Shown here: positions 42,019 to 44,202 of the stretch, piece after piece
How the letters are laid out: each line of letters opens with the position of its first letter
How positions within the stretch are numbered: position 1 is the first letter of the stretch
Source of the DNA: Halorubrum salipaludis
Lineage (GTDB): Archaea > Halobacteriota > Halobacteria > Halobacteriales > Haloferacaceae
Assembly (NCBI RefSeq): GCF_002286985.1
Contig: NZ_NSKC01000001.1
Coordinates: 310,001-374,000 of the forward strand
Length of the DNA stretch: 64,000 bases
Direction of reading: 5' to 3'
The notes under the pieces: generated by a model
The model's database searches: none
What the model was told of the DNA's origin: nothing
Seen by the model: the letters and a program-made list of their open reading frames with translations, nothing else
Translations under genes and position numbers: made by a program

Positions 42019-42125
42019 GACTTTACTCCGGGTCGAAAAGCGAATAAAACCTTTGTTAATGACAGTTCTCGGGCCGGTCGTCGCCGCTCGCCGGGATTTA
42101 TTGGGTCCGGGTGAGACTTCGGCGC

Positions 42126-42494
42126 ATGGAGATACTCCACACGTGTCTCAACGTCGAGGACGCCGACCGCACCGCAGACTGGTACGTCGAGCAGCTGGGA
42201 TTCGAGCGCTCGTGGGAGTTCACGACCGCCGACGGCGACACGCGCAACGTGTACGTCGCCGACGACGCCGGCGTCGAGTTCCAGCTGTCCGACACGGACG
42301 GCGAGGCGCCGAGCGCTGACGGCGACCGCTACGACCACATCGCCGTCGGCGTCGACGACGTGGACGCGACGTTCGAGGCGATCGACCACCACGGCGTCGT
42401 CAAAGAGCCGGGCGATCAGCCCGAGGCCGGGGCGCGAACCGCGTTCGTGAAGGACCCCGACGGGCACGCCGTCGAGCTGATCGAGCCGTTATAA
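42126..42494 (+). CDS. VOC (glyoxalase/lactoylglutathione lyase-like) protein
   Basis: A 122-residue protein made of two paired beta-alpha-beta-beta-beta modules. His5-region metal ligand is in MEILHTCLNVEDADRTADWY, a Glu in GVEFQLSD, the second His in DRYDHIAVGVDDVD, and the last Glu in DPDGHAVELIEPL, so all four glyoxalase I metal ligands appear present. Substrate is open; methylglyoxal-derived or other. Leaderless start: ATTTATT at 42096-42102 is 27 nt before ATG 42126. Divergent from dld, which fits lactate/methylglyoxal metabolism but does not prove it. Confidence 0.82.
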   Translation: MEILHTCLNVEDADRTADWYVEQLGFERSWEFTTADGDTRNVYVADDAGVEFQLSDTDGEAPSADGDRYDHIAVGVDDVDATFEAIDHHGVVKEPGDQPEAGARTAFVKDPDGHAVELIEPL

Positions 42495-42555
42495 ATGGAA
42501 CAAACGAGCTGCGAGGGATTTCGGGAGTACGTGAATCATTACGATGGGTCGGTCG

Positions 42556-42598
42556 TTTATAAGTAGAATTGTGGTGTTGCTGGTGGCTATTTATAAGT
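42556..42598 (+). promoter_or_regulatory. Two identical TATA boxes in a convergent intergenic region
   Basis: TTTATAAGT occurs at 42556-42564 and again at 42590-42598, 34 nt apart. The flanking genes point at each other, so neither needs a promoter here. The second box predicts a start at about 42618-42622, just before the left arm of the inverted repeat at 42625. Confidence 0.5.
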
Positions 42599-42624
42599 GA
42601 TCGACGATGTTGCGGTGAAGAGCT

Positions 42625-42858
42625 TCAAAGCCCCAGTCGCTGTGGGCGGCGCACGCTCGCTGTCGTTCGAAAGGCGCGAAGCGCCTTTCGTGATGTCGTC
42701 AGAACGCTTTGCGTTCTGACTGCTAGCCAGAAATCGGTGATTTCTGGCGATGACGAGAGAGATTTGCTCTCTCGAACCACGCGCTTCAGTCGGTCGCTAG
42801 CGTCCCCTCCTTCCAGTGCTTCCGTCGCCTGCGCCGCCCACAGCGACTGCCCCTTTGA
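42625..42858. repeat. Four tandem perfect hairpins enclosed by a 29-bp inverted repeat (possible structured ncRNA or mobile element)
   Basis: Outer arms 42625-42653 and 42830-42858 are inverted copies with one 3-bp mismatch block; the inner 20 bp pair perfectly (CAGTCGCTGTGGGCGGCGCA against its complement). Inside are four hairpins: 42668-42690 (stem CGAAAGGCGC, loop GAA), 42698-42720 (stem GTCAGAACGC, loop TTT), 42726-42748 (stem GCCAGAAATC, loop GGT) and 42754-42774 (stem CGAGAGAG, loop ATTTG). Their centres are 27-30 nt apart and their stems are unrelated. No protein frame fits. The block lies between convergent 3' ends with its own TATA boxes, so a folded RNA of about 240 nt is my preferred reading; a transposable palindromic element is the alternative. 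Confidence 0.65.
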
Positions 42859-42912
42859 GTCCCACCCAACCGCAGACCACAGCCTCACGCCTCCCCAGCC
42901 TCGCCGCTCGCT

Positions 42913-42996
42913 CGGGGCTCCCTTCGGTCGCCCCGTCGCGTCGCGGCGTCCCTCGCGCGTGCTCCTCGGCCGCGAAGCGGCCTCGGAGGCACGCGC
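42913..42996. repeat. Further GC-rich hairpins right of the hairpin array
   Basis: CGGGGC (42913-42918) pairs with GCCCCG (42930-42935). A long hairpin spans 42955-42996: arm GCGCGTGC TCC, a 2-nt internal loop, GGCCGC, a GAA loop, then the complement with one bulge. It uses the same GAA loop as the first hairpin of the array. The remainder of 42495-43176 shows no gene; GTTTATAAAC (43007-43016) and TTTAAATAC (43041-43049) are additional TATA-like sites. Confidence 0.5.
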
Positions 42997-43176
42997 CACC
43001 GCACCGGTTTATAAACGGTTGTCGCCGTCGGTCACGCCTGTTTAAATACTCTATCACCACCGCCGATCTGCAACACCCACACCCCCTCTCGTTCAGAGCA
43101 CTCCCGTTCCAAGGCGCGGTCGACGGTAAAAAGTCGGTGTGTCGAAGGGATTCGAGTCGAGCGCTCGACTGGCCGA

Positions 43177-44088
43177 CTACAGGATGCCGGCGGCCTCGGC
43201 GGTCTCGACGATGTCCTGGGCCATCTTGTTGGTGGCCTCGTCGACCATCTGGCCGTCGACGCTCACGGCGCCTTTGCCCTCCTCCATCGCTTCGGCGTAG
43301 GCGTCGACGATGCGCTTGGCGCGCTCGGCGGTCTCCGGGTCGGGGGCGAAGACCTCGTTACCGATCTCGATCTGCGAGGGGTGGATCGCCCACTTGCCGT
43401 CGCAGCCGATCATGTTGGCGTTCTCGGCGGACTCGCGGAACCCTTCGGGGTCCTCGATGTCGGCGTAGGGGCCGTCGAGACACGGGAGCCCGGCCGACTT
43501 CGCCGCGGAGTTACACTCTGAGAGGGCGTGGTGCCAGTAGTGGCCCGGATACTCGGGGAACTGGCCGATGTCGAGGCCGGGCGTGCCCATCGCCGCGGAG
43601 TAGTCGCCCGGACCGAAGATGATCGACGAGAGCCGGTCGGAGGCGTGCGCGATGTCGTGGACGTTGTGGATCCCCTCGCCGTCCTCGATCTGGGGTTCGA
43701 GGCCGATGGCGCCGACCTCCAACCCGTTGTTCTCCTCGACCTGCGCGAGCAGGTTCTCGACCGTGTGCACGTCGCTGGCGGACTTGACCTTCGGAACGAT
43801 GATGTCGTCGATGAACTCGCCGGCCTCGCCGACGACCGTGATCAGGTCGTCGTACCACCACTTCGTGTCGATCCCGTTCATCCGGAAGCTGAGGACCTTG
43901 TCGCTCCAGTCCTCCTCGCGGGCGGCCTTGATCAGGGGTTCGCGCGCGTCCGGCTTCGCGTTCGGCGCCACCGAGTCCTCCAAGTCGAGGAACACCTCGT
44001 CGGCGTCGCTGTCGGCCGCCGAGTGCATCATCTTCTCGTCGCTCGCCGGCGTCGCCAACTGCGTCCGCCGCAGTGTAACGTCTGACAT
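43177..44088 (-). CDS. HpcH/HpaI-family CitE-like lyase (malyl-CoA type)
   Basis: A 303-residue TIM-barrel protein of the citrate lyase beta/malyl-CoA lyase group. Features are RTQLATPASDEKMMHSAADSDADEVFLDLEDSV with its acidic metal ligands, VLSFRMNGID, IGLEPQIEDGEGIHNV (catalytic Glu region), IIFGPGDYSAAMG and GKWAIHPSQI. In haloarchaea relatives act on malyl-CoA or methylmalyl-CoA in acetate or propionate assimilation; the reaction here is not settled by sequence. I chose ATG 44088; another ATG at 44103 adds five residues. TCTTTATC at 44117-44124 is the probable TATA. Confidence 0.87.
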   Translation of the reverse strand: MSDVTLRRTQLATPASDEKMMHSAADSDADEVFLDLEDSVAPNAKPDAREPLIKAAREEDWSDKVLSFRMNGIDTKWWYDDLITVVGEAGEFIDDIIVPKVKSASDVHTVENLLAQVEENNGLEVGAIGLEPQIEDGEGIHNVHDIAHASDRLSSIIFGPGDYSAAMGTPGLDIGQFPEYPGHYWHHALSECNSAAKSAGLPCLDGPYADIEDPEGFRESAENANMIGCDGKWAIHPSQIEIGNEVFAPDPETAERAKRIVDAYAEAMEEGKGAVSVDGQMVDEATNKMAQDIVETAEAAGIL

Positions 44089-44202
44089 GTACGAGTCTAT
44101 CATGCTTATCCCTGAAGATAAAGATACCTTACGCGGGGGTATTTTCTCTGAGTCGGAATCGAGTAAACGCGAACCGAGAGCGGGCGCGTTTCGCCCCCGC
44201 GT

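Follow-up and report, generated by a model that had tools for sequence, protein, structure and literature searches.

What are four hairpins, set in a row inside a long inverted repeat, doing between two genes of Halorubrum salipaludis? The block lies in a window of 64,000 nucleotides, the whole stretch of DNA analysed here, and its geometry is as the initial annotation described it. The outer arms (42625-42656 and 42827-42858), reported there as a 29-bp inverted repeat enclosing the hairpins, are 88% complementary over 32 nt. Hairpins 1 to 3 (42668-42690, 42698-42720 and 42726-42748) each have 10 bp and a 3-nt loop, hairpin 4 (42754-42774) has 8 bp and a 5-nt loop, and the spacing of the four is 28-30 nt. 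Folding of 281 nt at this place gives -139.1 kcal/mol, whereas shuffled sequences average -96.1 (z -8.4, reached in 0 of 200 shuffles). The neighbouring genes, a glyoxalase-family gene (42111-42494, + strand) and one for an HpcH/CitE-like lyase (43177-44103, - strand), are indeed convergent. We propose that the block is probably a long-form copy of a non-autonomous, modular and dispersed palindromic element of haloarchaeal chromosomes. Coordinates 42625-42858, to which the annotation confined it, do hold the arms and hairpins, but the element is larger, about 582 bp (42513-43094). Its parts are as follows.

42513..43094, + strand: whole element copy, 582 bp, between terminal inverted repeats (TIR pair, edge conservation)
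42513..42532, + strand: left terminal inverted repeat GAGGGATTTCGGGAGTACGT, consensus GATCGAYNGCGGGAGTRNGT (genome motif count)
42556-42563, + strand: second TATA-box-like sequence, upstream of the left arm
42590..42597, + strand: TATA-box-like TTTATAAG, upstream of the left arm (recurrence at own-genome cores)
42625..42656, + strand: 5' arm of helix P1, containing invariant AAAGCCCC (complementarity, covariation)
42663..42779, + strand: optional four-hairpin cassette (short copies join 42662 to 42780)
42668..42690, + strand: hairpin 1 (double changes in 4 of 10 pairs, 21 copies)
42698..42720, + strand: hairpin 2 (double changes in 2 of 10 pairs, 21 copies)
42726..42748, + strand: hairpin 3 (double changes in 3 of 10 pairs, 21 copies)
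42754..42774, + strand: hairpin 4 (double changes in 4 of 9 pairs, 21 copies)
42781..42819, + strand: small inner helix P2 (covarying helices 3-5)
42827..42858, + strand: 3' arm of helix P1, containing invariant CCCCTTT (complementarity, covariation)
42857..42900, + strand: conserved linker GAGTCCCACCC...GCCTCACGCCTCCCCAGCC (invariant alignment columns)
42901..42950, + strand: variable stem region P3 (own-genome copy alignment)
42955..42997, + strand: hairpin P4, GCGCGTGC...GGCCGCgaaGCGGCC...GCACGCGC (sequence, own-genome copy alignment)
43007..43016, no strand assigned: palindromic TATA-like GTTTATAAAC, right side of the core (sequence, own-genome copy alignment)
43075..43094, - strand: right terminal inverted repeat, degenerate (TIR pair search)

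When 341 bases around the block were used as query, the own genome yielded many copies of two kinds, some with the hairpin block and some with 42662 joined straight to 42780; about 100 places were fetched for alignment and analysis. They share a common plan. A TATA-like sequence is followed by AAAGCCCC with a variable arm and by conserved CTCGCTGCGCTCC...GCGGTGCTTGCGTCG; then come the complementary arm with CCCCTTTGAGTCCC, a linker that ends in CCTCCCCAGCC, a stem that varies and a hairpin with GGCACGCGCCACCGC at its end. Thus P1, with its invariant C-C internal loop, encloses P2, and a conserved 3' module comes after. A covariance model made from the first 158 alignment positions matches the own genome 135 times, a few places being counted twice at contig ends and palindromic sites. 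Both checks put forward with the initial annotation, a count of copies and a search for compensatory changes in other Halorubrum genomes, turned out positively: all 52 of the Halorubrum genomes searched have matches, compensatory changes are found among them, and the block therefore belongs to a high-copy family. This count rules out a lone regulatory RNA. Three contigs of the own genome (C23, C26 and C27; L017, L038) have assembly ends inside element copies.

The family is spread over the class. Matches occur in 190 of 242 genomes and 63 of 74 genera, figures that give presence and not copy number, since at most 12 candidates per genome were scored, and that omit distant copies, since the model was built on Haloferacales copies. 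Counted by named record, there are 110 copies in Halorubrum sodomense, 100 in Haloglomus halophilum and 53 in Halosimplex aquaticum; numbers are low in two Haloferax (4-5) and in Halorubrum salinum (4), and zero cores were counted in Halobacterium salinarum DSM 3754. The 4 copies of Halorubrum salinum GX71 (L259) against 110-135 in two other Halorubrum mean either a large loss or no expansion. In the tree of copies, one branch (support 92/100) separates Halorubrum from other genera, a grouping that is expected for turnover within lineages. The element is chromosomal: a virus- or plasmid-borne element is ruled out by 0 matches in phage records, by its rarity on plasmids (matches in 5 of 72,556 records) and by a lone pattern match on a viral contig, which comes without arms. 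In Haloglomus, two Halosimplex and Halomicroarcula (G315, G318, G325, G326), cores also stand in tail-to-tail pairs, separated by a few bases, similar to BIMEs. In two species, a copy is found some 150 nt past the RNase P RNA gene, in differing orientation (G000:C22:69394-69548 and G028:C9:319640-319793). We found no published description of the element in the literature on Halorubrum repeats, haloarchaeal MITEs, REPs or sRNAs, nor under its motif strings, and none of the haloarchaea we looked for is named in a survey of REPs across bacteria and archaea.

The outer inverted repeat and the small inner helix are the conserved core, and the four-hairpin block is an optional cassette inserted at one fixed junction. 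P2 is formed in the window copy by GCGCT (42781-42785) and AGTGC (42815-42819), and in other copies by GCTCC with GGTGC or GGTCC with GGTCC. Among 112 own-genome cores, 92 have no cassette, eight have four hairpins and five only hairpins 1 and 4; five carry a different, 3'-side pair of hairpins (TCATCAGAACGC..., CACGAGAGC...) at P2, and two have both kinds. The 3'-side pair is seen in another genus too (L102), and in related species further paired hairpins are placed in other stems. The stems, which had been described as unrelated to each other, are not wholly so, because in several copies hairpins 1 and 4 use an identical one (CGAGACGCC/GGCGTCTCG). Stems, cassette and spacing differ freely among copies, and for this reason a degenerated gene, imaginable because open reading frames run through the block, is unsupported.

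The annotation had further claimed that pairing, and not sequence, is what has been acted on. Be it by selection or by another process, this is strongly borne out: partners covary in the arms and in each of the four hairpins. Across 56 cores, double changes affect 29 of the 34 pairs predicted, the core is 94.4% paired, and the covariation score of 0.488 falls to 0.04-0.09 after sliding the partners. In 21 four-hairpin cassettes, 98.8% of cells are paired (32-42% after sliding) and 13 of 39 pairs show double changes. Shuffling reached the covariation score in 0 of 500 trials for core and cassette each. The closing pair is among those swapped, being C-G in Halorubrum and G-C in other genera. Conserved pairing with compensatory changes is thus present, and as a criterion it fits RNA and DNA alike.

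Nearly every change replaces one Watson-Crick pair by another. One-sided and two-sided changes number 28:334 in the core and, with the four hairpins as drawn, 5:55 in the cassette (6:55 by an automatic fold with extra pairs), against 89:168 in RNase P RNA of 25 haloarchaea. One-sided changes of the G-U type are therefore about six times rarer in the element than in this RNase P RNA of the class. As a control the latter is imperfect, because its divergence differs from that of the repeat. Hairpins with 3-nt loops near cores have a C-G closing pair in 142 of 145 cases, and their loops are often GNA (42) or TNC (36; 78 of 145 together), about equally on both strands relative to the element. In DNA, loops of the type C(GNA)G have exceptional stability. 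In one copy (L047:1037-1488) the interior of P1 is inverted between its arms, as from recombination of inverted repeats. The scarcity of G-U-type changes, the strand-neutral loops and this inversion suit pairing at the level of DNA, or copying of one arm from the other; judged from these patterns we lean towards either of them over RNA alone, a lean rather than a proof.

Could each Halorubrum copy nevertheless encode an sRNA from a TATA box of its own, P1 and the cassette arms forming a structured RNA that serves as protein partner or decoy? The covariation of pairs would suit such a family, as would the invariant C-C internal loop within covarying helices. The TATA box before the left arm, to which the initial annotation drew attention, recurs: TTATAA precedes 80 of the 112 own-genome cores by at most 60 nt (shuffled expectation 0.55), in a narrow interval of 31-43 nt before AAAGCCCC. 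One copy (L247:853-1093, between a glyoxalase-family gene and citE) has four perfect 57-bp tandem units of the TATA-leader upstream of its core, and such arrays would also be in favour of transcription. Upstream TTATAA is, however, present in 22 of 63 cores of other Halorubrum and in 0 of 31 cores of other genera, so that the predicted TATA boxes, by their recurrence, are real but Halorubrum-specific. The few one-sided changes and the loops without strand preference likewise disagree with an RNA, and a known one is ruled out, since no curated Rfam family matched and the best score of 19.1 bits is far from the gathering score of 48. We thus consider an RNA family unlikely. The specific four-armed RNA of the annotation is at most putative: most copies do without the hairpin block, which is optional, and the near-lack of G-U intermediates fits DNA pairing better. 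It is also conceivable, though we would not expect it, that no selection is involved and the arms owe their perfection solely to template switching (quasi-palindrome correction) and to gene conversion among copies. Double changes that come in blocks, the paucity of one-sided ones and the recurrence of identical arm and stem sequences in unrelated copies are what these processes would leave behind. They do not readily account for the three C-C mismatches close to the base of P1 and the mismatch in the middle of P2, whose positions are constant across copies while neighbouring pairs swap, or for sequence motifs kept across families of the class.

Position between genes brings up another idea, that of a 3'-end element acting as bidirectional terminator, insulator or stabiliser of mRNA 3' ends. 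For 98 copies scored, with simple and somewhat noisy gene calls, the upstream gene is on the same strand in 66 and on the other in 32, and 42 of the spacers are convergent and 11 divergent. Control spacers of at least 200 bp (n=34) include 12 convergent and 6 divergent ones, so the convergent excess over other long spacers is not convincing, and a terminator of convergent genes is rejected on this ground. Tandem and divergent sites are common, the window hairpins are followed by no T-run, and the orthologous gene pair of several Halorubrum species has no element between its members, which makes such a role very improbable. In the orthologous glyoxalase-citE spacer, the element or its parts are present in about 13 Halorubrum species, once as an inverted copy (L227), and absent in L233, L238, L240 and L252 (spacers of 104-170 bp). 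Besides the window, the four-hairpin cassette is found there in a single lineage, the uncultured genome L288 (L249 is apparently the same or very near), whose hairpin 1 differs in sequence from that of the window and still pairs perfectly.

Part of a transposon was an explanation that the annotation itself had reckoned with, and the window copy goes some way towards it, having terminal inverted repeats of ~20-35 bp and a site that is occupied or empty in orthologous spacers. The 20-bp TIR motif, with up to 3 mismatches, has 136 matches in the genome against 8 for a reversed control pattern. It forms an inverted pair at 42 of the fetched own-genome places, mostly around a core, and conservation drops sharply just outside the edges, from 1.4 to 0.2-0.3 bits per position. 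Many copies are core-only and without TIRs, and two layers may therefore be mixed. One TIR pair (G000:C23:58767-58905) is only 139 bp apart and leaves no room for a core. Some observations are at odds with a mobile element: orthologous copies persist across species, the core is kept across families of the class, beyond what a pure parasite would need, and in the own genome there is neither a linked transposase nor a target duplication, as no 3-9 bp repeat stood clearly above shuffled pairs in 37 copies. A family search in this genome gave a single Y1_Tnp match, the ends of which carry no element motifs; with this one Y1 transposase unrelated, a REP/RAYT or IS605 partner in the genome is rejected.

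Returning to the non-autonomous palindromic element, we suggest that its copies might be spread by an enzyme that acts in trans and reads the folded single strand or the cruciform. Arms and hairpins would then stay complementary through recognition of folded DNA, or through one arm templating the other, and cassettes would be gained, lost and exchanged among copies. The TATA box in Halorubrum may also give RNA starting at the left arm, possibly as a by-product. A bolder version, which we regard as tentative and rather doubtful, is a class-wide system in which each chromosome bears over 100 folded DNA sites, with hairpin cassettes that can be exchanged at helix junctions, and the fold, not the sequence, is the conserved signal for a dedicated protein reader involved in mobility or chromosome organisation. 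If our assumptions are true, one unnamed element fills 100 or more spacers of certain haloarchaeal genomes and reaches most genera of the class. This would explain contig breaks at copies and spurious open reading frames called inside them. It would also provide a natural assay for the upkeep and copying of palindromic DNA in Archaea, and, with its many covarying arms and cassettes, ample natural material on which selection for RNA and DNA pairing could be told apart.

The nearest described haloarchaeal repeats, compared by description and not by sequence, are the PATEs and SMRs of Haloquadratum walsbyi, transposase-free chromosomal repeats with tens to hundreds of copies (PMC3119063); a PATE, with transcription, has also been reported from Halorubrum lacusprofundi and its virus (PMC10544981). 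Our element resembles both in being a short, transposase-free, multi-copy repeat of haloarchaeal chromosomes. PATEs contain palindromes and have IS605-like termini but no inverted ends, whereas SMRs (about 80-110 bp; SMR-A, of about 110 bp, is inserted into PATEs) have inverted ends and no target duplication (PMC3119063), two features which the element shares. It differs from SMRs in that a copy of 582 bp lies in ordinary spacers and only the core measures about 110 bp, and from both in its hairpin cassettes and covarying core, which do not appear in their description (PMC3119063).

Further comparisons, with REPs, BOX elements and MITEs, are analogies in which features are partly shared. Bacterial REPs and BIMEs, too, are imperfect palindromes that lie between genes in high copy number, keep certain mismatches and at times form inverted pairs; the element is much larger (core about 110 bp, copy about 580 bp), has no linked RAYT-type transposase, and the sequence of its arms is not fixed. 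The BOX elements of Streptococcus pneumoniae are intergenic repeats built of modules, in which the number of internal modules varies and the fold is stable. The likeness is one of plan, since the modules here are pairs of hairpins at helix junctions, and in archaea. With MITEs the element has in common terminal inverted repeats, dispersal and lack of coding capacity, but not target duplication or an assigned parent transposon, and its core occurs without inverted ends too. Taken together, we file it under a known kind, that of non-autonomous palindromic intergenic repeats.
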